Positions 4,035 to 29,359 of a DNA stretch of 39,918 nucleotides are shown piece after piece (the stretch's first letter is position 1; every line of letters begins with the position of its first letter). The stretch covers positions 1 through 39,918 of IMG/VR virus record IMGVR_UViG_3300010399_000020, one strand, 5' to 3'. A program made the translations under genes and the position numbers. Below the pieces are notes generated by a model that ran no database searches, had not been told where the DNA came from, and worked only from the letters and a program-made list of their open reading frames with translations. Source of the stretch: a virus.

Positions 4035-4694
4035 TCAACTCACCAGCGCCAGGCCGCGCGGACGCTCCGGGCGGTCTAGCGCGCTCGTGATTCCCAGCGC
4101 CGCCAGCACGCGCTTGCCTGCATCGAATTCCTCGCAGAATTGCGTGACGCCCTGCCGGAGCTTGATGATGAATTCCTCATCCCGCTCCACGCGGAAGATG
4201 CGAGACGGGAACGTGGGCGAGTAGATCACCACGTCCCACCATTTCCGGCCGGAGATCATCAGCCCGCCCTGCACCTGGCAGCGGTGCTCACCGTCCAACC
4301 CGTCCAGCAGGTAGCCAATGTGGTGCTTGGCCGCGGGCACTTTGATCTCCAGCCCGCCGTCCTCGCCCACCAGCCCGTCCGGGCTGCATCCGGCCCGGCC
4401 GTCATCGGTGAGAAGGAACCCGCCCGGCGTGATCTCGGCATCCCGCTGGAGCTCGTACCACGCGCGCGCGTCCTCCTCCATATCCGTGCCGCGGGTCATG
4501 AACCCGCTCTCCGCGTCCACCACTGGGTAGCCCAGGTGCCACTCTGCCAGCAGCTCGTTCCGGTACGTGAAGCGGGCCGCGGCCAGCTGCGCCTTGGCCG
4601 GGGTGAGGATGCGGTGAAACTGGCTGGCGGTGGGCAGCGCGAGCCGCGCGTCTATCCATTCCGCCGAGCCCTGGATGAGCGGCAGGTGAATCAT
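4035..4694 (-). CDS. YqaJ-like viral recombinase exonuclease (lambda-exo fold), 219 aa
   Basis: The sequence shows QGSAEWIDARLALPTASQF, the motif RGTDMEEDARAWYE (E74), SPDGLVGEDGGLEIKVP (D106, E116, K118) and HRCQVQGGLMISG (Q142). This is the ordered signature of YqaJ/lambda-exonuclease enzymes, which chew one strand of double-stranded DNA to expose a 3' overhang. The gene directly follows an ERF-type annealing protein, making a two-part recombination system like Red. The start ATG at 4694 lies three bases after the ERF stop. Confidence 0.93.
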   Translation of the reverse strand: MIHLPLIQGSAEWIDARLALPTASQFHRILTPAKAQLAAARFTYRNELLAEWHLGYPVVDAESGFMTRGTDMEEDARAWYELQRDAEITPGGFLLTDDGRAGCSPDGLVGEDGGLEIKVPAAKHHIGYLLDGLDGEHRCQVQGGLMISGRKWWDVVIYSPTFPSRIFRVERDEEFIIKLRQGVTQFCEEFDAGKRVLAALGITSALDRPERPRGLALVS

Positions 4695-4697
4695 GGG

Positions 4698-5495
4698 CTA
4701 GTCCCTCCCCGCGGCCGCAGCCTCTTCCCGGTTCGTGAGCGCATCCATGGCCCGCTGGAAATCCGCCTTTCTGATTTCCTTGAGCGCGCCCACCCCGAGG
4801 AACCGGAGGAACCGCGCGAGCACCTTGTCCTTATTCTTGGCGCGCTCCTTGGCCTTCTCCAGCGCGTCCTCAATGGCGATGAGCTGGGCCTCATCAATCG
4901 GCGTGGGGTCCACCTCGGCCGCGTCATCATCATCATCCGTGGTGATCAGCCCGAGGCCCTGGATGAGTGACCAGCGCATGGCGTACTTGACGGCCGCCCC
5001 GTATTTCTGCTGATCGTTCATCCCGGCTTTGCTCGTGGTGGGGCAGGAGAAAAACGAGCTCTCCGAATGGCCGCCGATGTGCCGGAGCACAAACTCCACC
5101 GTGACCAGCGCCGCCTCCGGCTTGGAATTCCACGAATAGCTCAGCCCGAGCTCATTGCAGAGCGGGCGTACAATGGCGTCAATGTCGTCCAGTAGGGCGT
5201 AGGAAAATTTCACCTTGCCACCCTTCTCTGAGACGTAATCCACCTTGCCCTCTTTCTTGATGCGCGGGCACCGCTGCTGAAAAATGGCCTTGGCCTCAAA
5301 AAAGAGGCGCGCCGCCAGCTTGGCGTCCTCGCGTTCCTTGAGCGAGACCAGCCGCTCCAGGGCTTCCACCGGGCTCTTTTCCTTGAGCGCCAGCTCTATC
5401 AGGCGGTCCATGCCGCCATCGGTGGGCTTGAGACTTACCTCCAGCGGCCGCTGCATGGCCGTGCCGGGGTCACGCTCTGGTGCCGTGCTTCCCAT
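4698..5495 (-). CDS. erf: ERF-superfamily single-strand annealing protein, 265 aa
   Basis: The region YALLDDIDAIVRPLCNELGL (about 99-118), a beta-rich middle and QQKYGAAVKYAMRWSLIQGL (about 162-181) match the ERF annealing core. An acidic loop DDDDD and a helical C-terminal domain follow (about 200-255). The protein would coat single-stranded DNA made by the neighbouring exonuclease and pair it with a complement during phage recombination and replication. A GAGG Shine-Dalgarno site precedes the ATG at 5495. The upstream gap carries an inverted repeat. Confidence 0.92.
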   Translation of the reverse strand: MGSTAPERDPGTAMQRPLEVSLKPTDGGMDRLIELALKEKSPVEALERLVSLKEREDAKLAARLFFEAKAIFQQRCPRIKKEGKVDYVSEKGGKVKFSYALLDDIDAIVRPLCNELGLSYSWNSKPEAALVTVEFVLRHIGGHSESSFFSCPTTSKAGMNDQQKYGAAVKYAMRWSLIQGLGLITTDDDDDAAEVDPTPIDEAQLIAIEDALEKAKERAKNKDKVLARFLRFLGVGALKEIRKADFQRAMDALTNREEAAAAGRD

Positions 5496-8481: not shown

Positions 8482-8640
8482 ATGAAATTAGCCTGCCGCG
8501 AATGCCGGAAGCCGCTGCCGTCACGGCCCAAGGGCCAGCGGGGCCGCGCCCGCCACTACTGCAATGAACGATGCAAAAGCCGCCATCGAAAACGGGTCTG
8601 GGCGCTCGGCCGGAAGGCCGCGGCGGGCGGGCTGTCGTGA
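8482..8640 (+). CDS. Small zinc-finger protein, 52 aa
   Basis: The protein has CRECRKPL and later HYCNERCKSRHRKRVW, giving C-x2-C and C-x3-C pairs followed by a basic patch. The pattern is seen in small phage DNA- or RNA-binding zinc proteins. It is the first gene of the rightward unit and ends in a GTGA overlap. It could be an early regulator of the long operon, but this is inferred from position. Confidence 0.78.
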   Translation: MKLACRECRKPLPSRPKGQRGRARHYCNERCKSRHRKRVWALGRKAAAGGLS

Positions 8641-8885
8641 GCGCCCAGCTAGAGCTGGAGGACGTGACCCGGCAGGCCACGCAGCGCCAGCGAATTCTGG
8701 ACTGGATGCTGGGGCACGGCGAGCCCCGTTCGTTGAACGAGATACGGGCGGCGTGTGGCGGCTCGGATACAGGCAATTCAGCTGCGCTGCGCCGCCTCCG
8801 CAAGGAGGGTTGCTCGGTGAGCTGCAAGCGCGCGCCGGGCGCCGTCTGGCTTTACTGCGTTCGCCTCAGTCAACCCGGACAATAG
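8637..8885 (+). CDS. Winged-helix-like DNA-binding protein, 82 aa
   Basis: GTG 8637 overlaps the previous stop. The core TQRQRILDWMLGHGEPRSLN, then EIRAACGG and NSAALRRLRKEGCSVSCK, reads as helix, turn, recognition helix and wing. The wing (GAVWLYCV) closes the domain. It is likely a sequence-specific DNA-binding regulator placed just before the methyltransferase. Confidence 0.75.
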   Translation: MSAQLELEDVTRQATQRQRILDWMLGHGEPRSLNEIRAACGGSDTGNSAALRRLRKEGCSVSCKRAPGAVWLYCVRLSQPGQ

Positions 8886-8896
8886 GACGAGCCTTT

Positions 8897-9745
8897 GTGA
8901 CCGCGCCCCCGCCCGTGCTCCCCTCATCCCCTGACGTGCGGGTGTACTACAACGAAAACGACCCGTACATGGTGAAATGGCTGCGCGAGTTGATGGCGGA
9001 GGACGCCATCCCGCGGGGTGATATAGACGAAAGATCCATCAAGGAGGTACAACCAGGTGATCTCCTCGGATACACGCAGTGCCATTTCTTCGCTGGCATC
9101 GGGGGATGGGCCTACGCCCTCCGGCTCGCCGGATGGACAGCTCAGCCTATTTGGACCGGGAGCTGCCCATGCCAGCCCTACAGTATCGCCGGACGACAAG
9201 CCGGAGATGCAGACCCCCGGAATTTGTGGCCATTCTTCCGGCGACTCATCGCCGCACGAAAACCTCCAGTCGTTGCTGGTGAGCAGGTTGCGCAAAAACT
9301 TGGCCGGGCGTGGTTCGCCGCTGTTCGCGCTGACCTGGAGGAGTTGGGATATGCCGTCTGGGGCGCCGCTCTCTGCGCTGCTGGCGTCGGCGCACCGCAA
9401 CCCCGACTCCGCACGCTCTTCATGGCCTACCCCTCTGGCCCACGAGGCCCGGCTGGGGTTTCAAGATCGCTCCACCGGAAAGAAGGGTACGCAGGAATCG
9501 TTGAGCACGGTGGCGGTGCTGAACTATGCGCCGGAGAGCGACCCCCGCATCCAGTCAGTGCTTGGGAGCCGTCCCAGTGGCTACCGGGTCGCTTCGGTAA
9601 ATCTCGCCCAGTTGGACCCGGCATTTACCCTCTGGCTCATGGGCTACCCAGCCGTGTGGGCGCGCTGCGCGGCGCGGGTAATGCCATCGTCCCGCAGCTC
9701 GCGGCGGCGTTTATAGCCACCTACATGGAGGTGTGTGCCACATGA
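8897..9745 (+). CDS. C5-cytosine DNA methyltransferase (Dcm-like), 282 aa
   Basis: Conserved motifs occur in order: motif I FAGIGGW (65-71), the catalytic loop SCPCQPYS (PCQP 91-94, Cys92), GEQV (128-131) in the place of ENV, QPRLR (168-172) for motif VIII, and GAGNAIVPQ (259-267) for motif X. The enzyme would methylate cytosine in phage DNA using S-adenosylmethionine, probably to avoid host restriction. The target-recognition part is short and low in complexity. GTG 8897 is the likely start. From codon 54 onward nearly the whole gene is also open in the +1 frame. Confidence 0.88.
   Translation: MTAPPPVLPSSPDVRVYYNENDPYMVKWLRELMAEDAIPRGDIDERSIKEVQPGDLLGYTQCHFFAGIGGWAYALRLAGWTAQPIWTGSCPCQPYSIAGRQAGDADPRNLWPFFRRLIAARKPPVVAGEQVAQKLGRAWFAAVRADLEELGYAVWGAALCAAGVGAPQPRLRTLFMAYPSGPRGPAGVSRSLHRKEGYAGIVEHGGGAELCAGERPPHPVSAWEPSQWLPGRFGKSRPVGPGIYPLAHGLPSRVGALRGAGNAIVPQLAAAFIATYMEVCAT
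9041..9047 (+). promoter_or_regulatory. Ribosome binding site for the internal overlapping gene
   Basis: AAGGAGG lies nine bases before GTG 9057, inside the methyltransferase coding sequence. It is a full-strength Shine-Dalgarno match where none is needed for the methyltransferase, and it supports initiation in the second frame. Confidence 0.7.
9057..9716 (+). CDS. Overlapping +1-frame protein inside the methyltransferase gene, 219 aa
   Basis: This frame lies wholly within the methyltransferase gene but reads like a real protein: SLFGPGAAHASPTVSPDDKP, then SPLFALTWRSWDMPSG, SSWPTPLAHEARLGF and LDPAFTLWLMGYPAVWARCA, ending MPSSRSSRRRL. I recognise this succession from uncharacterised phage proteins encoded with Dcm-type methyltransferases. 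The C-terminal SSRSSRRR block is what the motif X codons give in this frame. A perfect Shine-Dalgarno site precedes GTG 9057. It may work with the methyltransferase, for example in target recognition, but that is a guess. Confidence 0.65.
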   Translation: MISSDTRSAISSLASGDGPTPSGSPDGQLSLFGPGAAHASPTVSPDDKPEMQTPGICGHSSGDSSPHENLQSLLVSRLRKNLAGRGSPLFALTWRSWDMPSGAPLSALLASAHRNPDSARSSWPTPLAHEARLGFQDRSTGKKGTQESLSTVAVLNYAPESDPRIQSVLGSRPSGYRVASVNLAQLDPAFTLWLMGYPAVWARCAARVMPSSRSSRRRL

Positions 9746-19507: not shown

Positions 19508-19917
19508 TGCCGGGCGTGACTCCGGCCGAGGGCCGCGCGCTGCTCATGCAGCTCACCTACCACCGCACGAGCCTGGACCGCGCGGCGGACCTAGAGCTCC
19601 TCCTCATCTGCAACCGCTCCCTCAGTGACAGCCTGACGTATGCGGAGCTCGTGGAGCCCGTGGGCCTGGGCTACGCGCGGCGCCCGCTCTATGACACGCT
19701 CTGGGAGGTGCGCGGCGCGGACAGCGCGCGCTACGCCCCGCAGACCTGGGAGGTAGGCGTGAAGGGGTGGGCCGGGCGCGTGACGGGCTACGCCATCGTG
19801 ACGCGCGCCGCGCCAGGCGGCACGCCGCGCGTGCTCCATGCCGAGCTGGCGGGCGGCGAGCCCCAGGCCATGAACGAGCTGGACACGTATGAAGTTGAGC
19901 CCCGCGTGAGTCGCTGA
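19507..19917 (+). CDS. Putative virion structural protein, 136 aa
   Basis: The beta-rich sequence with LTYAELVEPVGLGYARRPL, APQTWEVGVKGWAGRVTGYA and IVTRAAPGG resembles small phage structural proteins with a jelly-roll look that sit before collar-type fibres. TAATG and TGATG junctions couple it to the portal fusion and the next gene. It could be an adaptor for the following fibre-like protein. The precise role is unknown. Confidence 0.65.
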   Translation: MPGVTPAEGRALLMQLTYHRTSLDRAADLELLLICNRSLSDSLTYAELVEPVGLGYARRPLYDTLWEVRGADSARYAPQTWEVGVKGWAGRVTGYAIVTRAAPGGTPRVLHAELAGGEPQAMNELDTYEVEPRVSR

Positions 19918-21125
19918 TGGCGGGCATACGACACGCCACCCCGGCCACGCTGCCGGATGACCCGCTCTACGAAATCAAGTCCTCCAACTGGAATGAGGAC
20001 CATGACGTAGACCCGGAGGCGATCACCGAGGCCATGATTGAGAGCGCCGCCCGCATCCCGGTGGGCGGCATCATCATGTGGAGCGGGGCCATTGCGGCGA
20101 TACCTACCCGCTGGGCGCTCTGCGATGGCACGGCTAATGCGCCCGGCCCGGACCTGCGGGACAAGTTTGTGGTGGGCGCCAAGCAGGACCAGGCGGGCGT
20201 AGCGAAATCCGAAATTGAGGGCAGCCTCAAAGTGTCAGGCGGCGCTACGGGGCACTCCCACTCGGGCCACGCCAATCTCTCGCACGCGGGGGCCGCGGTA
20301 GGCGATCACACGGGGCTCACGCACTCGCTGGCGATTGCGGACCACCCGGACCTGACGCACGCCGCCCTCTCGCACGCCGCCACCACGATCACGCAGCCTG
20401 CGGCCACCGTCCCCACGCACTCCGGGTCTCACGCCGCGGTCACGGGCTCGCGTCCCAGCCTGGCGGTGGCCGCGGCTACCGCCTCGCGCCCCTCGGGCTC
20501 CATCGCCTCGCATGCTGGGGGTAGCACGCCTGCTCAAACCGTCACGTTTACCTCGCAGGTAGGTACGGCCACCACGGGCGTGGTCTCCGTCCCCGCCCTC
20601 ACAATCACGGTTACGGGCGTCAACTCTGGCGCGGCTACGGGCAACACGAGCCTCAACCGCATCCCCCCGAACGCCAGCACGCATACCGCCAACGTGCAAA
20701 GTCATACGGGCTCGCAGCCCTCGGTCTCCGTGTCGGTGGGGTCTCAAACGCTTCCCGTGGTTTCGGCCGCCAATGCCTCCGGGCCAACACGCTCCTTTGC
20801 CTCGGGCGTAGATGTGTCCGTCCCCTCGCAGGCGATTGCCAGCGGTGTGGATGTGTCCGTGCCCACGGGCTCGCACTCGCACGCCTCCAGCGCCGTGGCC
20901 GTTGCTGATCTCAGCCTGCCGTCCCTCTCGCACCAAGCGATTGGCACGCACCGGGGCACTGATTACGGTGTCCACCAGATCACCGCGCCCGCCGCCCACG
21001 GCGTGGCGGGCACCCTCTCCCATTCCGTCACGCAGGCGGACCCGCACGCGATCAGTGCGCATGACACCGTGAGCAACGTGCCCAGCTACTACGCCCTCGC
21101 CTTTATTCAGCGGATGGCGGCGTGA
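19917..21125 (+). CDS. Tail-collar-domain fibre-like protein with His/Ser-rich repeats, 402 aa
   Basis: Residues 47-88 (IPVGGIIMWSGAIAAIPTRW, then DGTANAPGPDLRDKFVVGA) match the phage tail collar domain seen in receptor-binding fibres. From about 110 the protein becomes rich in His, Ser, Thr and Ala with loose repeats such as GHSHSGHANLSHAG, THSLAIADH and a twofold SGVDVSVP. It ends NVPSYYALAFIQRMA, typical of such collar proteins. The His-rich body could bind metal along a trimeric shaft. Its place between portal and capsid genes is unusual for a tail fibre and fits a head or neck decoration better. Confidence 0.82.
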   Translation: MAGIRHATPATLPDDPLYEIKSSNWNEDHDVDPEAITEAMIESAARIPVGGIIMWSGAIAAIPTRWALCDGTANAPGPDLRDKFVVGAKQDQAGVAKSEIEGSLKVSGGATGHSHSGHANLSHAGAAVGDHTGLTHSLAIADHPDLTHAALSHAATTITQPAATVPTHSGSHAAVTGSRPSLAVAAATASRPSGSIASHAGGSTPAQTVTFTSQVGTATTGVVSVPALTITVTGVNSGAATGNTSLNRIPPNASTHTANVQSHTGSQPSVSVSVGSQTLPVVSAANASGPTRSFASGVDVSVPSQAIASGVDVSVPTGSHSHASSAVAVADLSLPSLSHQAIGTHRGTDYGVHQITAPAAHGVAGTLSHSVTQADPHAISAHDTVSNVPSYYALAFIQRMAA

Positions 21126-21211
21126 GGTGGTTCCACCAGTGGGCGCCGTGGGTGGTGTTTTTCCTCGTGCTGCTCGTGATCGCCGCCATAACCGTGGAGC
21201 TTATCCCATGA
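21122..21211 (+). CDS. 29-aa single-pass membrane microprotein
   Basis: GTG 21122 overlaps the fibre stop (GTGA), and the stop at 21209-21211 overlaps the next ATG (ATGA). The product, MRWFHQWAPWVVFFLVLLVI and nine more residues, is one membrane helix with aromatic residues at its N-terminal edge. The exact coupling on both sides argues that it is a real gene. Its role inside a head operon is unknown. A stray lysis or membrane-tethering peptide is possible. Confidence 0.68.
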   Translation: MRWFHQWAPWVVFFLVLLVIAAITVELIP

Positions 21212-21366
21212 AGTTTGTGCAGCTGGAAGCGGTGGCCACCAAAGAGGGGCACACGCTCTACGCCCTGGACGACAGCGGCGCCGTGTTCATGTACGATGGC
21301 CCGGCGCGCCGCTGGATTGCCTGCGGCACGGAGCGCATAGAGCCGCGGCCCGTGGGGCACGGATGA
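21208..21366 (+). CDS. Hypothetical protein, 52 aa
   Basis: A small beta-rich protein: LEAVATKEGHTLYALDDSGA followed by VFMYDGPARRWIACGTERI. The repeated strand-turn pattern is like that of small phage proteins of the kind xxLYALDxxGxVWxY. ATGA overlaps lie on both sides. Function is unknown. Confidence 0.75.
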   Translation: MKFVQLEAVATKEGHTLYALDDSGAVFMYDGPARRWIACGTERIEPRPVGHG

Positions 21367-22082
21367 AAGGGCGCGTGTTGGTGGCGTGCCCCACGTATGC
21401 GGGCAAGGAGTACGCGCTGGACCCATGGATAGCCGCGTTTCGCGCGCTGGATTACGAGGAGCCGCGCTTCGCGTATCAAGTGGACAACACGGCGGTGACG
21501 CGCAACTACTTTGAGCTCATCCGCTCCAAGGGCATTGACTGCACCCACCTCCAGCCGTGGAAAGACTGGGACCGCACGTTCCTCCGGTGCTGGCAGCTCA
21601 TTCTGGAGCGCGCCAAAGCCCTGGACTGTTACTGGGTGTTCAGCGTGGAGGCCGACAACACACCAGCGCCGGAGTCCCTGCGCATCATGGTGGAGGCCGC
21701 GCTGCATGCGCGCATCCACCTCGTGACGCACGCCTACCCGATGCATGAGAGCGCGGCGAAAGCCTCGGGCCTCACGGGCAAGGAGTTTTACTACCACGAG
21801 CTGGGCTGTATGCTCATGAGTCGCCGCCTGCTGGAGCGCGCCATTGAGGACTTTGAGGAGTACGGCCAGCTGGTGGCGGCGATCTTCGGGACCGAAAATC
21901 GGTACATGGGGGGCTATCTCAAAATGACCAACCGTTTTCGTGTCGGCCATCTGGATGGCTTTGAGCAGAGCTTTCCGAATCTCGGGCCGAGCGAGGCGCC
22001 GGGGCTGATGTGTCCCACGCCGCAGATGCCTGCGCACTACGGCACGGAGCTGCCCGCGGTCCTGGCCGGAGTGGCCAAGTGA
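21363..22082 (+). CDS. GT-A-like glycosyltransferase, 239 aa
   Basis: RVLVACPTYAGKEYALDPWI at the N terminus, VDNTAVTRNYF (40-50), and YWVFSVEADNTPAPESLRIM (90-109) with an acidic EAD motif in the DxD place suggest a GT-A fold nucleotide-sugar transferase of a non-classical family. The C-terminal part has HELGCMLMSRRLLERA and an acceptor-side region. It is coupled by ATGA to a small structural-region protein and by GTGA to a methyltransferase. It probably transfers a sugar during phage assembly. The acceptor is unknown. Confidence 0.78.
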   Translation: MKGRVLVACPTYAGKEYALDPWIAAFRALDYEEPRFAYQVDNTAVTRNYFELIRSKGIDCTHLQPWKDWDRTFLRCWQLILERAKALDCYWVFSVEADNTPAPESLRIMVEAALHARIHLVTHAYPMHESAAKASGLTGKEFYYHELGCMLMSRRLLERAIEDFEEYGQLVAAIFGTENRYMGGYLKMTNRFRVGHLDGFEQSFPNLGPSEAPGLMCPTPQMPAHYGTELPAVLAGVAK

Positions 22083-22627
22083 CGGCGCCCGCCGCGCTGA
22101 ACCTGCCCGCCCTCCACCTGCAAGTGGTGCGCGAGTCCAAGCGCCTCAAGCTGGATATGGGGGCAGGCGCCTATCCGCGTGCCGAGGATTTCGTGACGGT
22201 GGACCAGTTCTACCCGGACGCCGATATCAAGGCGCTCATGTGGGACGTGCCGCTGCCGGATGGCTCGGTGGATGAAATCTGGAGCTCGCACGCGCTGGAG
22301 CACGTGGCCATGGGCCAGGTAAGCGCCACGCTGCTGGAATGGTTCCGGCTGCTGGCGCCGGGCGCGCGCTGCATCGTGCAGGTGCCCAACTTCGATTACG
22401 CCGCGCGCTACTGGCTGAACGGGCCAGACCGCGCCTGGGCCGAGCATTTGATCTTTGGCCTCCAGTCGCACGAGGGCGAGTTTCACAAGTCCGCGTTTAC
22501 CGCGGGCAGTCTCAAGGCTGATCTGGAGGGGGCCGGGTTCCACGTGGAGCGGGTGGAGTACAAGCTGACGCACAATCAGGAAACGCTCCAGGCGTGCGCC
22601 CGGAAACCCGAGGGCACCAGCGCATGA
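22079..22627 (+). CDS. Class I SAM-dependent methyltransferase, 182 aa
   Basis: LKLDMGAGAYPRAEDFVTVD (23-42) is the SAM-binding motif I and II region, and WDVPLPDGSVDEIWSSHALE (55-74) with HV is the conserved motif around the substrate pocket. LLEWFRLLAPGARCIVQVPN (85-104) completes the fold. The pattern is that of small-molecule or sugar methyltransferases, not DNA enzymes. It is coupled to the glycosyltransferase before it, so it may methylate the sugar that enzyme adds. Confidence 0.85.
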   Translation: MTAPAALNLPALHLQVVRESKRLKLDMGAGAYPRAEDFVTVDQFYPDADIKALMWDVPLPDGSVDEIWSSHALEHVAMGQVSATLLEWFRLLAPGARCIVQVPNFDYAARYWLNGPDRAWAEHLIFGLQSHEGEFHKSAFTAGSLKADLEGAGFHVERVEYKLTHNQETLQACARKPEGTSA

Positions 22628-23046
22628 ACGGCCCCTTTCAGAAAGACGTATTTCAGAATGACGCCTATCAAGTGGTGGGAGCAGCTGCTCCGGTGGTGTT
22701 GGATGTGGACGGGGGCGGCGGCTGGGGCGGCGAGCAACCCCGTGGCCTGCACTGGCTGCACCCACGCCCGCCCAAGCACCGCCGCCTCCGGGGACGGCTC
22801 ACGCCAGGGCACGCGCCCGCACCCGTGGCGCGGCTCCGCTTCCAGCGTCACGTCCGGGTCCGCGGCATGGTCTACGCCTGGCGCCCGTCTGCCATTCAGG
22901 GCCGGAGTACCTACATTGAGAGCGCGCACGAGCTGGCGCTCATCGCATCCATTGCCGAGGCCAGTTTCAGCCCGGACACTGATGCGCTCGGGACTGGGGA
23001 GCTGGACCTGCTCCTCGCGCTGAGCGCCACCCAGGAGGACGCATGA
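22624..23046 (+). CDS. Hypothetical head-region protein, 140 aa
   Basis: The start MNGPFQKDVFQNDAYQV is a pattern I know from small phage structural-region proteins (GPFQxDxFQNDAF). A Gly-rich middle, a basic His/Pro/Arg stretch (HPRPPKHRRLRGR) and an acidic helical end follow. It is coupled to the protease gene by ATGA. It may be a minor virion component, but evidence is limited to the N-terminal motif and position. Confidence 0.7.
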   Translation: MNGPFQKDVFQNDAYQVVGAAAPVVLDVDGGGGWGGEQPRGLHWLHPRPPKHRRLRGRLTPGHAPAPVARLRFQRHVRVRGMVYAWRPSAIQGRSTYIESAHELALIASIAEASFSPDTDALGTGELDLLLALSATQEDA

Positions 23047-23843
23047 AAACCGCCGCCCCGCCCAAGCTGGAACCGCGCCGACACGAGCGGACGCTCCAAA
23101 GCCTCACGTTCCGCGCAGCCCCCGCCGAGGGGGAGCCTGCGTTCCCGCCCGGCATCATCGGCCGCGTGCAGGCGGTCCTGCTGCGCTACGGCGTGGTGGA
23201 TGATCGCGGCACACTCTTCAAGCGCGGTTGCATTGACAAGACGCGCGCCCAGAAAGTGCCCGCGGGCCGGGTGGCGCTCTTCGCCAACATGGACAGCAAC
23301 GGCAGCGGCTTCCATCGGCACGGCACGCGCACCCACGTGGGCGTGGTCCGCACGCTGACCGATGCCGGGGATGACGTGCTGATGAGCGCCGACATTTTCG
23401 ATACGGCCGAGGGCCGGAGCGTCAAGGAGTATTTGGAGGCGGTCCTGGCGAGTGGCGCCCACACGGGCGCCAGCATCGGATTCGTGGAACGTGAGGGCGA
23501 GGTGGTGGAGATCGTGGGCGCCGATGGCGTCAAGATGCGCGCCTACCAGTTTGAAGAGATAGAGCTGTACGAGGGCACTATTGTGCCCCTCTCCAGCGTG
23601 CCGGGTACGGAGGTGCTGGCGGTACGCAGCACGGCCGCCCTGGCGGAGGAAGCGCTCCGGGCCATCGTGCCAGTGATTGGCGCGGAGCGTGCGTTGCAGA
23701 TCGTTAGCCAGGCGTCACCGGAGGCACCTACGGCCGAGGCTCGCGCGGACACCCGCGCTGCTGCGCCGGAGATCGCCGCCACGGCTCCAGAGGCAACGAT
23801 GGAAGAGCGACGGGCGGCACTCGCCGCGGCGCTCAAGTCGTAA
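23043..23843 (+). CDS. HK97-type prohead protease, 266 aa
   Basis: Features of the U35-type prohead protease are visible: GVVDDRGTLFKRGCID (about 50-65), a His-rich loop HRHGTRTHVGVVR (91-103; H91 or H93 is the likely catalytic His), IFDTAEGRSVKEYLEAVLAS, and GASIGF with S144. It matures the procapsid by removing the capsid N-terminal domain. The last 60 residues are Ala/Glu/Pro-rich and may serve as scaffold. It directly precedes the major capsid gene, as usual. Confidence 0.9.
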   Translation: MKTAAPPKLEPRRHERTLQSLTFRAAPAEGEPAFPPGIIGRVQAVLLRYGVVDDRGTLFKRGCIDKTRAQKVPAGRVALFANMDSNGSGFHRHGTRTHVGVVRTLTDAGDDVLMSADIFDTAEGRSVKEYLEAVLASGAHTGASIGFVEREGEVVEIVGADGVKMRAYQFEEIELYEGTIVPLSSVPGTEVLAVRSTAALAEEALRAIVPVIGAERALQIVSQASPEAPTAEARADTRAAAPEIAATAPEATMEERRAALAAALKS

Positions 23844-23850
23844 CCCTCTC

Positions 23851-23856
23851 AAGGAG
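23851..23856 (+). promoter_or_regulatory. Strong ribosome binding site of the major capsid gene
   Basis: AAGGAG ends nine bases before ATG 23866, in one of the few gaps between rightward genes. It decides the longer capsid start and fits the need for high capsid output. Confidence 0.75.
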
Positions 23857-23865
23857 TCAGACCAC

Positions 23866-25467
23866 ATGAACCGCATTACTCCGCGGGCGCTGCTGGGATT
23901 CGCGCTCGCCGTCCTCGCGCTGGCCGTAGGCTGGGCCATCGTGCCGGGCGCAGACCACCTGCTGACGGCTCTCTACGGGGCGGCGCTGCCGCTCTGGAAG
24001 GGGCTGGCGGCGGCCGGGGGTTCCAAGATGCTCATGGCTACGGCCGTGATCGCATCGCCCGAGAAGAGCCGGAAGGCCGCGGCGTTCCTCGCCAAGGCGG
24101 ATGAGCTCCTGGCGCGGGTGGCGGACCCCGATATCAAAATGACCAAGGAGGAGCTGGAAACGGCCATGCAAGGCATCCGTGACTACAAGGCACGGGCCGC
24201 GGCCATCGCAGATTTCACCCCGGCTGCCGAGATTGAGCGGCAGGAGCAGCGGGCGGCCGGAGAATCGGAGGCGCAGTTTGAGACGCGGCTCGCGCGGCTC
24301 AAGAATCCCGAGCACGTACAGCCCGGCGATGAAGAGGGGCTGACGTTCCGCGCCCAGATGGAATCCATTGGCAAGGATATCGCCCGCTACTTCGGCGGTC
24401 CCAATGGCTACCTGCTGGCACTGGCGCGGGCGGGCACCGGGCGCAAGGAATATGCGCTCAGCGAGAAGCAGGAAACCGCGCACAAGCGCCTGGAGCAGCT
24501 GCATACCCGTGCGATCATCGGCACGGCGGGCGACGTGTCGCACGGTGAATACCTGCTCCCCCTCCAGCAGGTGGCGAGCATCTTCTCCATCGGCGTGGAG
24601 CAGCCCAGCTTCATGGACATTGCCACCCGCTACCCCATGGCGGGCCGCACGCTGCGTATCCCCATCGCGCAGCAGACGGACGCGAGCGGCCGCACACGGC
24701 CGCTCTCGGGCATCGCCAACGTAGGCATCATTGGCGAGGGCAGCAGCAAGACGGAGAAGCAGCCCAGCTTCTCGCAGCGCATCCTCACCGCCTACAAGAT
24801 CGCGGCCTACACGGAGCTGGGTGATGAGACGCTGGTGGATGACTTCACCGGGGAGCTGGCGCCCACGGTGCAGAAGTTGATTGGCGGCCAGGTGGTGAAT
24901 TACCTGGCGGAGCTCTGCTCCTATGACGGCACGGGCAGCTCCGCGCCGCTCGGCGCGTTCCACGCCAACAACGGCGCGCTGATCACCGTCAACCGGACCA
25001 CGAGCCAGAGCGTGACCACGGCCGATATCTTCGCCATGTACGCCAAGCACACGTTTGGCGTGGGGCGTTCGGCCTGGTTCTGCAACCGCACCGTGCTCCC
25101 GGCGCTCTTCGCGCTGACCCTGACGGGCAACAACCTCGTGACGTTCCTCCAGAGCCTCAACGCGGCTCCCGTCATGACCCTGCTGGGCCTGCCCGTGATC
25201 GTCACGGACATGGCGCCCGTGTTGGGCGTCAAGGGTGATCTGGCCCTGGGTAACGGTGGATTCTACGCCTACGCGCTGCGCCAGGCGCTCACGGTGGAGA
25301 GCTCCATCCACTACAAGTTCCAGAACGACATTACCGCCTACCGCTTCCTCACCCGCGGCGGCGGCATCCCGATTCCCGAGAGCGAGTACAGCTACAAAGC
25401 CTCGGGCAGCGTCAAGACGGCCCCGCACAGCCCATTTGTTGTGCTGGGCGATGACATTGCCTCCTAA
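23866..25467 (+). CDS. Major capsid protein (HK97 fold) with hydrophobic N-terminal segment, 533 aa
   Basis: The C-terminal part (about 230-533) has the HK97 capsid look: VSHGEYLLPLQQVASIF, ATRYPMAGRTLRIPI, ELGDETLVDDFTGELAP, WFCNRTVLPALFAL and YKFQNDITAYRFLTRGGG. Residues 62-160 form a charged coiled coil, as in the delta scaffold that the protease removes. Unusually, residues 8-50 are hydrophobic (LLGFALAVLALAVGWAIV and a second stretch), like a membrane anchor. The strong Shine-Dalgarno site favours ATG 23866. A weaker alternative ATG at 24028 would drop that segment. Confidence 0.9.
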   Translation: MNRITPRALLGFALAVLALAVGWAIVPGADHLLTALYGAALPLWKGLAAAGGSKMLMATAVIASPEKSRKAAAFLAKADELLARVADPDIKMTKEELETAMQGIRDYKARAAAIADFTPAAEIERQEQRAAGESEAQFETRLARLKNPEHVQPGDEEGLTFRAQMESIGKDIARYFGGPNGYLLALARAGTGRKEYALSEKQETAHKRLEQLHTRAIIGTAGDVSHGEYLLPLQQVASIFSIGVEQPSFMDIATRYPMAGRTLRIPIAQQTDASGRTRPLSGIANVGIIGEGSSKTEKQPSFSQRILTAYKIAAYTELGDETLVDDFTGELAPTVQKLIGGQVVNYLAELCSYDGTGSSAPLGAFHANNGALITVNRTTSQSVTTADIFAMYAKHTFGVGRSAWFCNRTVLPALFALTLTGNNLVTFLQSLNAAPVMTLLGLPVIVTDMAPVLGVKGDLALGNGGFYAYALRQALTVESSIHYKFQNDITAYRFLTRGGGIPIPESEYSYKASGSVKTAPHSPFVVLGDDIAS

Positions 25468-27469
25468 TCAGGGGCAAGACGCGGAAAAGCCAGGTGGGGG
25501 GACGCCCCCGCCTGGCCCTCCGGGCTGGGTGCTCTGCCGTGTGATCTCACGCTGCCGGGTGGCAGGTGTGGTCCGCGAAGTGGGGCAGGAGTTTTACTGC
25601 GAGCCCAGTCTCGCGCAGCATCTCACCCACACCACGCCCCCGCTACTGGAGCGTTGTCTCGCAGGCCGCCATCCCACGCAGGCGCAGTGGCGCCCTGGAG
25701 TCGGCCGCATGCTGCGGGCGCACGCACCGGGTGCGCTTGGCGGCCAGCGCATCATTGCCTGCATCAACATCTGGAATGACCGCCCGGCGCTGGAGCGCTG
25801 CCTGCCCTCATGGTTTGAGCACGTGGACGGGGTAGACGTGCTGGACGGGGCTTACGGCGGCGGCGCGAGTGATGACGGGCTGGAGGACTACCTGGCCGAG
25901 CTCCGGCAGGCGGCGCCCGGCAAGGAGATCAGGCTGTGGCAACTGGAGAACGGCACGCAGCTGGACAAGCGCACGGCGCTGCTGCTGGCGGGGCGCCAGG
26001 GTGATCTCCGGTTCATCGTGGATGCAGACGAATGGGTGGAGGGTGCGCGCCTCCTCCGAACGCTGCCCGAGCTGGATGTGGGCTGGGTGGATATCGTGAG
26101 CGCGTTGTATCAGCGGGCCTACGGCCAGCCGCGGCTCATCCGCTGGCAGCCGGGCCTGCGCTACGCGGGGCGCCATCACTGGCTCTGGGCCGGGCAGCGA
26201 CTCCTGGCGACACACCAGTACGGCGGCCTGGCGCTCCACGTGGCCACTGGCCTGCGGCTGGAGAATCGCCGCGGCCTCGGGCACACGCCCTGGCGCTCCT
26301 CTGTCAAACGTGCGCTGCATCGCACCCAGCTCAAGGCCGAGGCTACGGCGGTGGCGTTGCCCGGCCGCTCGGATGCGTCAGACGCCATGGTGGGCGGGCG
26401 GGAGGCGCTCCGCATCCTCCAGCTCACGCACTATGACCCCGGCATGGTGGCCTACCGCCTCCACACCGCAATCAACTGCACCACGCCGCACGCCTCGCTC
26501 CTGGGTTCGGCCGCCGCGCGCAACACGTTCAAGGCGCTCATGCAGTACGATATCCAGGCCGATGCGCCCCAGCTCCGGGCCGCGCTGCTGGAGGCGGACG
26601 TGGTGCATTGTCATCTGGACTACGGCGTGGTCCGAGGGTTGCTCGGCGGCGAGGAGCCCGAGCTGGGCCGCTTCGCGCATGACACCGGGCGCCTGCTGGT
26701 GATTCACCACCATGGCACCATGCTGCGGAAAATGGCGGCCTTCTACGCGCACCGGGACCGGGAGCTCGGCGCGCTCCGGCTGATCTCCAACCTAGAGCTC
26801 ACGAAATACGGGGAGGGGCTGCGCTGGCTGCCCAACCCGGTGCCGTGCCGGGAGTATCAGGAGCTCCACGCGCGCGTGTGGGAACCGCATGACACCTTCC
26901 GCGTAGCGCACTCTCCGAGCAAACGGCACCTCAAGGGCACGGAGGAGTTTCTGGCGGCGTGTGAGCGGCTCCAGGCCGCGGGGCTCGCCATTGAGCCCGT
27001 GGTCATTGAAGGCATGGGCCACCGAGAGGCGCTCGCGCTCAAGGCCACGTGTGATGCGGCCTTTGATTCGTTCTGGCTGGGCATCCAGTGCTCCGGCCTG
27101 GAGGCGGCGGCCATGGGGTTGCCCGTGATCGCGGGAGACCCTTACGTGGCGGCGCAGTATCGCAGCGAGGTGGGCGCCGTGCCGTACACGTATGCGAACG
27201 ATGGCGCCGAGCTGGAGGCCGCGCTGCGGCGGCTGTACGAGGAGGGAGACTTCCGCCTGGAGGAATCGGTGCGCGTGCAGGGGTACGTAGAGCGCTTTCA
27301 CGATGAGGCGGCGGTGGCGCTCCGCTATCTGGACTTACTGGACGCGCACGGCGGCTGGCGGCTCCGGTTCACGATTGGCGGCGTGCGGCCGCCGTCTGTG
27401 GTGCAGGTGAGCTCCCCGCCCGAGCCCACGGTGGAGCGCGCGGCACCCATCGCGCTGGAGATGCGCTGA
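25451..27469 (+). CDS. Two-domain glycosyltransferase (GT2-like plus GT4-like), 672 aa
   Basis: ATG 25451 overlaps the capsid gene end by 17 bases. Residues about 100-300 form a GT2-like domain: IIACINIWNDRPALERCLPS and FIVDADEW with a DAD metal motif (191-193). Residues about 319-610 look like a GT-B (GT4-type) enzyme: LRILQLTHYDPGMVAYRLH, VHCHLDYG, HHHGTML, RVAHSPSKRHLKGTEEFL and LEAAAMGLPVIAGDP. The order of two unlike transferase domains in one chain suggests successive sugar additions. Its place straight after the major capsid gene points to virion glycosylation, which is inference. The N-terminal 90 residues are of unknown type. Confidence 0.85.
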   Translation: MTLPPNQGQDAEKPGGGTPPPGPPGWVLCRVISRCRVAGVVREVGQEFYCEPSLAQHLTHTTPPLLERCLAGRHPTQAQWRPGVGRMLRAHAPGALGGQRIIACINIWNDRPALERCLPSWFEHVDGVDVLDGAYGGGASDDGLEDYLAELRQAAPGKEIRLWQLENGTQLDKRTALLLAGRQGDLRFIVDADEWVEGARLLRTLPELDVGWVDIVSALYQRAYGQPRLIRWQPGLRYAGRHHWLWAGQRLLATHQYGGLALHVATGLRLENRRGLGHTPWRSSVKRALHRTQLKAEATAVALPGRSDASDAMVGGREALRILQLTHYDPGMVAYRLHTAINCTTPHASLLGSAAARNTFKALMQYDIQADAPQLRAALLEADVVHCHLDYGVVRGLLGGEEPELGRFAHDTGRLLVIHHHGTMLRKMAAFYAHRDRELGALRLISNLELTKYGEGLRWLPNPVPCREYQELHARVWEPHDTFRVAHSPSKRHLKGTEEFLAACERLQAAGLAIEPVVIEGMGHREALALKATCDAAFDSFWLGIQCSGLEAAAMGLPVIAGDPYVAAQYRSEVGAVPYTYANDGAELEAALRRLYEEGDFRLEESVRVQGYVERFHDEAAVALRYLDLLDAHGGWRLRFTIGGVRPPSVVQVSSPPEPTVERAAPIALEMR

Positions 27470-28002
27470 TGGCGGGCATGACCGCGGCCAAGCTGGCGGC
27501 GATTCATACCCGCCACGAGCTCCATGCGGGGGTCCGCATCTTCATGGAGACGGGCACGTTTGAAGGCAAAACCACCCGCCTGGCGGCCGCGGAGTTTGGC
27601 CTCGTGTTCTCGGTGGAGATCAAACGCGAGCTCTACCAGGCGGCGGCAGAGCGGTTGCTGGTGGAGTGCCCCAACGTCTCGGTGCTCTTCGGAGATTCGC
27701 GCTGGGCCGTGCGCTGGCTCGCCACGCGCCTCACCGAGCCCGTGTGCTGGTATCTGGATGCGCACTGGTTCAAGCACCCTGCGGTTGGCGGCCAGGAGGA
27801 GGGCCTCCCGCTCTGGGCGGAGCTGGAGGCTATTGCCGCGCGGCCGTTCCGTGATATCGTGGTGGTGGATGATGTAAACGATTTCGGTAAACCCAAGCCC
27901 ACGCCCGAGTGGGAGCAGGTCACGCTGGAGCGCATTGCGGGCATGTTCCCTGGCCACCATGAGGCGGTCATCCTCCATGATCAAGCTGTGATTTACAAAT
28001 GA
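27469..28002 (+). CDS. SAM-dependent methyltransferase-like protein, 177 aa
   Basis: IFMETGTFEGKTTRLAA (24-40) is a motif I variant, FSVEIKRELYQAAAERL (47-63) gives the acidic residue of motif II, and VLFGDSRWAV and WYLDAHWFKHP continue the pattern of FkbM/TylF-like methyltransferases that act on sugars and small molecules. A VVVDDVNDF stretch follows. It is coupled by TGATG to the double glycosyltransferase and by ATGA to the next glycosyltransferase, so methylation of a transferred sugar is a reasonable reading. Confidence 0.8.
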   Translation: MAGMTAAKLAAIHTRHELHAGVRIFMETGTFEGKTTRLAAAEFGLVFSVEIKRELYQAAAERLLVECPNVSVLFGDSRWAVRWLATRLTEPVCWYLDAHWFKHPAVGGQEEGLPLWAELEAIAARPFRDIVVVDDVNDFGKPKPTPEWEQVTLERIAGMFPGHHEAVILHDQAVIYK

Positions 28003-28784
28003 TTCGGAGCCTCTGCTCCGTGATCATCCCCACGCACGGCTACGCCCGCATGGGCTGGCTGCGTGAGGCCATCGCCTCGGTGGAGGCGCAGGACTGTGGC
28101 CCCACCCGCTGGGAGCTCATCGTGGTCCGTGACGCGGCAGACCCCCTCTACGGGGACGAAATGCCGCGGCTCCCTCCCCGCAGCCGTTACGTGCGCGGCC
28201 ATCGCCCTGGGCTCTCGGCCTCGCTCAACCGGGCGGCCGAGCTCGCGCAAGGCGAATACCTCACCGTGGTGCAGGACGATGACTGGATACTGCCCAACAA
28301 GCTGAGCTCCGCGCTGGCCGTGTTTGAGCAGCGGCCCGCCACCGAGGTGGTGTACTCGCTGCCGCTCTACGTGGATGCGGACGGCATGGGCGGCCACACG
28401 CCGCCCAAGTTGCTGGAGACCGTGCGCCAGCATCCGGTGCTCACCGCCGCCCACCTCCGGGCGGGCGTCCCGTTCCTCGTGCACGGCACGGCGACGGTGT
28501 ATCGCCGCCGCGCCTGGGAGCGCGCCGGGGCGTGGGATGAGACGCTGCGCACGGCCGAGGAGTGGGAGTTTCATCTCCGGCTCCTCTCATGCGGCGCGAT
28601 CTTCCACGGCATTGAGGCCGTGACCACCGTGTACCGCCAACACCCCGGCCAGAAAACGGGCACCGTGAAAACGCGGCACGGCTCGTACAACAAGCGGCGC
28701 TCCGCCACCCGCAAGGCTACGCTGGCGCTCATTCACGCGCGTTACCCGGAGCTGGTAGGCGCCCCCGAGGAGGCTGTAGTATGA
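27999..28784 (+). CDS. GT2-family glycosyltransferase, 261 aa
   Basis: CSVIIPTHGYARMGWLREAI (6-25) is the classic nucleotide-binding start of GT2. ASLNRAAELAQGEYLTVVQD with DDW (DDD at 93-95) is the metal-binding motif, and HGTATVYRRRAWERAGAWDE with TAEEWEFHLRL is the acceptor-side region with the ED-like catalytic position. There is no membrane segment, so it is cytosolic. It is the last of the glycan genes and is joined by ATGA to the head-tail adaptor gene. Confidence 0.92.
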   Translation: MIRSLCSVIIPTHGYARMGWLREAIASVEAQDCGPTRWELIVVRDAADPLYGDEMPRLPPRSRYVRGHRPGLSASLNRAAELAQGEYLTVVQDDDWILPNKLSSALAVFEQRPATEVVYSLPLYVDADGMGGHTPPKLLETVRQHPVLTAAHLRAGVPFLVHGTATVYRRRAWERAGAWDETLRTAEEWEFHLRLLSCGAIFHGIEAVTTVYRQHPGQKTGTVKTRHGSYNKRRSATRKATLALIHARYPELVGAPEEAVV

Positions 28785-29359
28785 CGCTCGTGACCGTGGC
28801 CCACTGCGTGAGCCACCTGCGGCTCCCCGATAGCTCGGAAAACTCCCTGCTCACCATTTACCTGGCGGAGGCGCTGGCGGATATCATCGGGTACATTGGC
28901 CGCCCCGTGACCGCGGTGGAACGGAACTACACGGACCCGGCCAAGGCGGTGCTGGTGTACGGCGTGGTGCAGCGGCTTTCCCTGCCGCAGTGGCCGATTG
29001 ACCCGGACAGCGTGAGTGTGGTGGATGCAGACGGGGAGACGGTGCCGGACACCGATTACGTGGTCCATGGGGAAAGCGGGATGCTGGAGGCGGTGCCGGG
29101 CGCGGCGTTCGCCAATGGCCCCTACACGATCACCGCGGACGTGGGGCTCTCCGCCTCGGAGCGCTACGCCCTGGAGTACGAGCCCATTGTGAACGGCGCG
29201 CTGCTCGCGCTCGTGGCCGACAAGTACCAGCGGCGCACGAGCCCTGGCGTGAGCTCGGAAGGCACGGCCGGAGGGCTCAGCCGCTCGTTCTCCACGGACG
29301 ATATCCCGCCGCACATCAAGAGCAAGCTGGAGCGGCTCCGCCTGGTGAGCGCCGCGTGA
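28781..29359 (+). CDS. Head-tail connector (gp6/adaptor-like), 192 aa
   Basis: VTVAHCVSHLRLPDSSENSL, LTIYLAEALADIIGYIG and a C-terminal helical region (EYEPIVNGALLALVADKYQR) fit the helical adaptor that docks under the portal in HK97-like phages. The middle contains a beta-rich insertion (VVDADGETVPDTDYVVHG). The gene opens the connector block that leads to the tail genes. Confidence 0.82.
   Translation: MTLVTVAHCVSHLRLPDSSENSLLTIYLAEALADIIGYIGRPVTAVERNYTDPAKAVLVYGVVQRLSLPQWPIDPDSVSVVDADGETVPDTDYVVHGESGMLEAVPGAAFANGPYTITADVGLSASERYALEYEPIVNGALLALVADKYQRRTSPGVSSEGTAGGLSRSFSTDDIPPHIKSKLERLRLVSAA

Follow-up and report, generated by a model that had tools for sequence, protein, structure and literature searches.

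The window analysed here is the whole of the IMG/VR virus record IMGVR_UViG_3300010399_000020 (39,918 bases), which belongs to a soil phage that is siphovirus-like by gene content. Within its late operon, three glycosyltransferase (GT) genes and two methyltransferase (MT) genes lie among the head genes. We propose, with a probability of roughly 0.6, that this phage glycosylates its own virion using two enzyme sets encoded in that operon, module A (GT1 and MT1) acting on the collar fibre and module B (a two-domain or double GT, MT2 and GT2) acting on the capsid, both with methylation. Virion glycosylation as such is likely. The proposal is carried by the folds and families of the enzymes, by the order of their genes and by two independent conserved linkages, of module A with the fibre gene and of module B with the capsid gene. 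Both arrangements are conserved in other viruses and chance is therefore excluded.

A first-pass annotation of the window, made without database searches, had described these enzymes as one five-gene glycan module set into the head operon. The five genes are real and lie on the plus strand at about the positions it gave, and Pfam/PHROG matches confirm the portal, protease, capsid and adaptor genes around them. The single module, however, has to be divided: GT1 and MT1 are part of a fibre cassette found in phages with unrelated heads, and the double GT, MT2 and GT2 form a capsid-linked set found in related heads that lack the cassette. Virion glycosylation with methylation, the function it had put forward, remains the best supported, but not as the work of one joint module.

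Module A is a travelling fibre cassette

GT1 motifs and fibre motifs were scanned separately over viral contigs. The GT1 motifs alone returned 17 other contigs, 15 of which carry a fibre homologue just upstream. MT1 follows just downstream in 12 of these 15, the remaining three contigs ending before it; together with L023, which was found via the fibre, the fibre-GT1-MT1 trio is thus present in the same order in 13 other viral contigs. The fibre-motif scan recovers most of the contigs of the GT1 scan. Junctions within the cassette are usually start/stop overlaps of 1-4 nucleotides (nt), and in some contigs the fibre-GT1 junction is interrupted by a small gene, by a gene for an RmlD-type reductase (L007) or by an HNH-like open reading frame (ORF; L022, recognised by eye). 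The RmlD-type gene may indicate that the L007 phage uses a deoxyhexose, rhamnose for instance. In L016, positions 65-1350, upstream of the cassette, encode a polysaccharide pyruvyl transferase (PF04230, 4e-7), and a second GT may be present there too.

The large proteins flanking the cassette are almost all unrelated from locus to locus. The cassette lies after the portal gene and before the capsid or protease gene in L006 and L009, after the portal gene in L013, in the gap between TerL and portal in L023, before TerL in L008 and before tail genes including a tape measure in L010. Given such varied neighbours and sites, it is the fibre, and not the capsid or portal, that accompanies GT1 and MT1 throughout. 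Cassette-bearing contigs span GC contents of 0.43-0.69 and each cassette has the GC content of its own contig, so that the transfers are probably not recent. Distances of the three genes are correlated as well: fibre and GT1 distances give a Mantel r of 0.77 (p 2e-4), GT1 and MT1 distances an r of 0.82, and the pairwise comparisons of fibre, GT1 and MT1 together range over r 0.77-0.83 (p <= 2e-4), lower without L016 and still significant.

The fibre of the window contains 23% Ser plus Thr and 6% His. The fibre scan provided 49 clusters of collar-domain proteins. Of the 14 in which at least 170 residues follow the collar, 13 have a GT1 homologue downstream, vs 1 of the 35 with fewer (Fisher p 7e-10, a value overstated by relatedness). 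This association fits the long Ser/Thr/His-rich tail being the acceptor. A further hint, from within one population, is the contrast between L022 (1-4505) and L026 (10-4514), which share an identical stretch of 4505 bp that covers the portal and the start of the fibre and diverge in the fibre repeats; L026 and three contigs from other samples diverge from L022, and L026 is without the fibre tail and GT1.

GT1 itself has no match in Pfam, PHROG or NCBIfam. An AlphaFold model computed from a 17-sequence alignment (pLDDT 86.7) has a GT-A fold, with VIA Z scores of 15.6-18.7 to GT2-type enzymes including hyaluronan synthase, RmlT, TarP and WrtF, the best match reaching Z 18.7 over 194 residues at 2.8 Å. 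Residues S94, E96 and D98 are invariant across the 17 sequences and form an S-x-E-x-D stretch with the DxD-like acidic motif E96-A-D98. As no curated model matches it, we name GT1 a GT-A-fold enzyme and not a member of the GT2 family. MT1 passes the Methyltransf_11 cut-off (31.2 bits vs 21.2), and its profile matches include D-glucose O-methyltransferase as well as other classes.

Module B is linked to the capsid gene

A scan with the GT-B domain of the double GT returned 35 other viral loci at 32-55% identity. GT-B homologues were also found in contigs of metagenome-assembled genomes (MAGs) of Gemmatimonadetes, Actinomycetales and Burkholderiales, misbinning being possible for two short ones. 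Viral and MAG loci together include 27 with a capsid gene; in 26 of them GT-B begins at most 1.5 kb downstream of it, and the adaptor gene then follows within 1.5 kb of GT-B in 25 of 26. GT-B distances correlate with capsid distances at r 0.78, as do those of the adaptor (also 0.78). Because GT-B and the adaptor show equal congruence with the capsid, we conclude that GT-B was inherited with the head; it behaves as a core gene of this head lineage. Portal, protease, capsid and adaptor are common to the window and most phages of the GT-B loci.

These relatives carry module B without module A, just as the relatives of module A carry it without module B. In five of the former (L142, L143, L155, L161 and L162) the portal and protease matches are only about 20-55 bp apart, and the most likely course is therefore an insertion of module A in the line of the window. 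Both the GT-A and the GT-B domain are present in 11 relatives, and GT-B only in the others. L133 has, before the adaptor and in the order of the window, the double GT, MT2 (52%) and GT2 (38%). At the equivalent site, L134 has a different methyltransferase-like gene. An overlap of about 17 nt between the end of the capsid gene and the start of the GT recurs in L149 and L150. Two of the relatives encode, upstream of the double GT, HTDDE-motif proteins that look LmbE/PIG-L deacetylase-like by eye (L136 5406-6209 and L138 1995-2657). The head-morphogenesis ORF of L145 (3814-5298) continues into the sequence CLPGDTLIDA, which resembles an intein start.

The double GT was modelled from a 26-sequence alignment (pLDDT 81.6). 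The model shows a GT-A domain joined to a GT4-type GT-B domain. The GT-A domain (residues ~86-314) matches ThuS (Z 17.0) and SunS (Z 15.3) among the matches listed. Both are peptide S-glycosyltransferases, and in the model this likeness would suit a protein acceptor. The GT-B domain (~318-640) matches a methylmannose-polysaccharide mannosyltransferase (7qsg; Z 18.4, 244 residues, 2.7 Å), with other GT4 enzymes nearly equal (BshA, PimA, SenB and 7qsg lie at Z 15-18 over 244-301 residues). By profile, GT-B matches PglA at E 0.01; in Pfam, Glyco_trans_1_4 stays below its cut-off (15.5-17.3 bits vs 27). N-terminal to both lies a small beta domain of low model confidence, and one lead is that it derives from a separate head protein that became joined to the enzyme: phrog_2616 (function unknown) matches it at 3e-4, in L152 only, and a search for the domain in stand-alone ORFs did not find it.

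MT2 matches no methyltransferase model in Pfam or NCBIfam. Its assignment follows from 32% identity to an annotated methyltransferase of cyanophage S-SCSM1, itself encoded inside a run of GT genes.

Gene map, junctions and source phage

The two modules and the genes that flank them are listed in Table 1. The first-pass annotation had most of these genes coupled by four-base overlaps. Coupling is indeed found, with lengths ranging over 1-17 nt: the overlap is 4 nt at five junctions (GT1/MT1, MT1/22624 ORF, 22624 ORF/protease, MT2/GT2 and GT2/adaptor), 17 nt between the capsid gene and the double GT and 1 nt between the double GT and MT2. The GTG start of MT1 (22079) sits in the GTGA overlap with GT1. 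As had been proposed, the double GT starts inside the end of the capsid gene, but only by these 17 nt and not across the whole C-terminal part, its ATG being at 25451 and the capsid stop at 25465-25467; a longer ORF from GTG 25235 is not needed, and the ATG was taken as the start.

Table 1 Features of modules A and B and of the adjoining head genes in the window
Feature	Position	Strand	Evidence
Module A fibre, collar domain and long Ser/Thr/His-rich C-terminal region; proposed acceptor of GT1/MT1	19917..21125	+	Collar PF07484 E 0.0067; phrog_5795 tail protein 6e-10
52-aa ORF between fibre and GT1	21208..21366	+	tblastn 58% in L010, L019, L020, same place; no family match
Module A GT1, GT-A-fold glycosyltransferase, E-A-D motif	21363..22082	+	AlphaFold model, VIA matches, invariant residues
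Module A MT1, class I S-adenosylmethionine (SAM) methyltransferase, GTG start	22079..22627	+	Pfam Methyltransf_11 3.6e-7
Small ORF between MT1 and protease, FQ repeat at the N-terminus	22624..23046	+	No convincing family match, no homology to enzymes
Prohead protease, flanks both modules	23043..23843	+	Peptidase_S78 4e-4; phrog_80 7e-7
HK97-type major capsid protein; proposed acceptor of module B	23866..25467	+	Phage_capsid 3.7e-19; phrog_10 1.7e-23
Module B two-domain GT: short N-terminal beta domain, GT-A and GT4-type GT-B	25451..27469	+	AlphaFold model, fold matches
Module B MT2, probable SAM methyltransferase	27469..28002	+	32% to S-SCSM1 methyltransferase; 52% homologue in L133
Module B GT2, GT2-family glycosyltransferase	27999..28784	+	PF00535 8.8e-18; 38% homologue, same place, L133
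gp6-type head-tail adaptor, closes module B	28781..29359	+	phrog_442 1.2e-18; Phage_connect_1 3e-5

Pfam and PHROG scans identified TerL, the S78 protease, the HK97-type capsid, the gp6-type adaptor, a tail completion gene and a portal fused to a head-morphogenesis domain; the major tail and tape-measure genes are candidates. The small ORF after MT1 opens with an FQ repeat (FQKDVFQNDAYQ), and a similar FQ motif (GFQSDSFQQDSFQ) occurs in a small ORF after the methyltransferase of L016 (9243-9419). The capsid precursor (23866-25467) has a strongly hydrophobic, membrane-helix-like N-terminal segment (Kyte-Doolittle (KD) 2.5 at residue 8), and hydrophobic N-terminal stretches are also present in two relatives (L136 2518-4107 and L171 5993-7615). 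Elsewhere in the window, at 4035-5495 and 8564-9745, the minus strand encodes a YqaJ recombinase and ERF and the plus strand a C5-cytosine methylase.

Contigs L001 and L003 represent the same virus (100% identity over the portions they hold), which is also all that was recovered by scans with the portal, with the single-sequence double GT and with MT2. In the phage collection, the 9.4 kb region has no DNA match and neither GT1 nor the double GT found one. TerL relatives have almost nothing else in common with the window, and GT1 motifs scanned over GTDB genomes returned no relative.

Proposed mechanism and points that weigh against it

Both enzyme sets would be expressed from the late operon, with sugar nucleotides supplied by the host. 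The collar fibre would be made first, GT1 would put a sugar on Ser/Thr of its repetitive C-terminal region, and MT1 would methylate that sugar, capping or tuning it. On the capsid, the double GT would add sugars, possibly with GT-A starting on the protein and GT-B extending; GT2 would then add a further sugar to the capsid glycan and MT2 would methylate. In this scheme we infer the acceptors (proteins, with the fibre as the target of module A and the capsid as that of module B), the order of the steps and the nature of the sugars. Tentatively, and at somewhat less than even odds, we suggest that a transferable glycosylated-fibre cassette moves as a unit among unrelated heads, and that here it has joined a capsid-dedicated set built on the two-domain GT, itself a core gene of the head lineage, giving one virion two differently methylated glycan coats.

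Several points speak against glycosylation of fibre and capsid. Glycosylation is predicted here from genes and modelled folds; gene adjacency is no proof of substrate, and a fold match to peptide GTs is no proof of acceptor. For module A, the association of GT1 with fibre length is confounded by relatedness, as the clusters nearest the window have both features, and the contrast between L022 and L026 could have arisen where the assembly broke in a repeat. For module B, the close capsid relatives in viral contigs were all reached through the GT. A search of about 700 genomes added only distant capsid homologues to three already found via the GT; sixteen distant homologues (25-31%), in bacterial genomes, have no GT-B homologue nearby, and in Kronos and Dagobah no GT is annotated downstream of the capsid. 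The GT is therefore not general to the capsid fold.

If our readings hold, virion glycosylation has long been present in environmental phages and has recurred among them, one lineage inheriting it with the capsid and many phages receiving it along with a fibre gene; to our knowledge, glycosylated virions are documented in few actinobacteriophages only. The fibre cassette would also make a small test system, having one acceptor, one transferase and one methyltransferase, and it offers natural variants with and without the long fibre tail. Methylated fibre glycans would matter for host range, for how stable the phage is in soil and for whether antibodies or host defences recognise it.

Alternative explanations

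Four other explanations were weighed. Firstly, all five enzymes might act on a single acceptor, most likely the fibre alone or the capsid alone, and build one methylated oligosaccharide there. Transcription in one direction, the coupled starts and the usual serial action of GTs would all agree with this, but relatives have B without A or A without B; as the modules occur apart, each is able to work alone, and we consider a single acceptor unlikely.

Secondly, the enzymes could modify the host surface (O-antigen, capsule or teichoic acid), leading to superinfection exclusion or receptor change. Phage GTs commonly modify the host surface, which we count for this explanation, and the fold of GT1 resembles TarP and RmlT, decorators of wall teichoic acid. 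The genes nevertheless sit in the late head operon rather than in an early or lysogeny region, GT1 is accompanied from phage to phage by a fibre and not by lysogeny genes, and the double GT is inherited with the capsid. No transmembrane segment was found in the five enzymes, and the Pfam/PHROG family matches include no multi-pass membrane flippase and no acceptor-side membrane GT of the kind found in gtr-type clusters. The late-operon site and the absence of transmembrane segments, together with the lack of base-hydroxylating enzymes among the ORFs scanned, disfavour both host-surface and DNA targets, and we regard modification of the host surface as improbable.

Thirdly, the genes could be passing morons without a role in the virion, inserted at transcribed intergenic sites. 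The sites after the portal and after the capsid do take different genes in different phages, yet order, overlaps and catalytic motifs are conserved over 36-73% identity, and carbohydrate genes recur at the same site, making this very unlikely. Finally, modification of phage DNA bases by the GTs and MTs can be given hardly any weight: T4 alpha-glucosyltransferase is among the GT-B fold matches (Z 15-16) and the phage encodes a C5-cytosine methylase, but many sugar GT4 enzymes match GT-B equally or better, no base-hydroxylating or hydroxymethylating enzyme is present among the ORFs scanned, and the fibre and capsid linkages would be left unexplained.

Comparison with known systems

The proposed glycosylation of the fibre and capsid by the phage's own enzymes has parallels in viruses of eukaryotes, from which the window phage is set apart by its host: in the chlorovirus PBCV-1 and in mimivirus, virus-encoded GTs, also multidomain ones, and sugar methyltransferases act on capsid or fibres. 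Among phages, several carry other carbohydrate genes between capsid and adaptor. L026, of a different head lineage, has a GT4, an epimerase and a GT2-like gene there. Like the window, the Microcystis phage Mae-JY09 has a GT4 in this interval, with a 210-aa protein that reads as GT-like and an epimerase-like gene; the enzymes are other ones, its GT4 and epimerase being homologous to those of L026. In the Pontimonas phage phiPsal1 (MG835450), genes 10-12 lie in an annotated series of capsid, GT4, SAM methyltransferase, GT2 and gp6 neck, which is the order of module B; it differs in having a single-domain GT4 and a methyltransferase on the opposite strand, and its enzymes have no blastp similarity to those of the window. 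The genome paper leaves the phage undiscussed (PMC6106888), and phiPsal1 is reported to have been lost. The GT4 enzymes of L026, phiPsal1 and Mae-JY09 are homologous to one another (32-36%), and in blastp none of the three matches the window enzymes. It follows that carbohydrate genes probably arrived at this site on more than one occasion.

The nearest functional precedent is that of the cluster O mycobacteriophages (Corndog type), which have three tandem GTs downstream of an O-methyltransferase, capsid and tail tube being the reported targets (PMC11600133, citing Freeman et al. 2023). By that description they resemble the window in having several GTs with a methyltransferase and virion proteins as reported acceptors, and differ from it in that the passage describes no fibre cassette (PMC11600133). 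Given this precedent and the annotated gene order of phiPsal1, calling the system of the window undescribed, as the first-pass annotation did, was too strong. Cluster F1 mycobacteriophages are reported to carry glycans on the major capsid protein (PMC11256854); Che8 gp108-gp110 are three consecutive GT genes with the capsid as acceptor, as is proposed for module B of the window. The three Che8 genes differ in lying at the 3' end of the genome, outside the head operon, and blastp of gp108-110 against the window GTs gave no match at E 0.01. In a Rhodococcus survey, virion glycosylation was likewise inferred from a GT plus a methyltransferase (PMC13313380).

A literature search returned nothing relevant on the fibre cassette, on its spread or on a two-domain capsid-linked GT as a core head gene. 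Thus, virion glycosylation with GTs and methyltransferases is a kind of system already known, and what is new to us is that a fibre cassette of this type exists and has spread across unrelated phages, and that a capsid-linked GT with two domains behaves as a core gene of the head.

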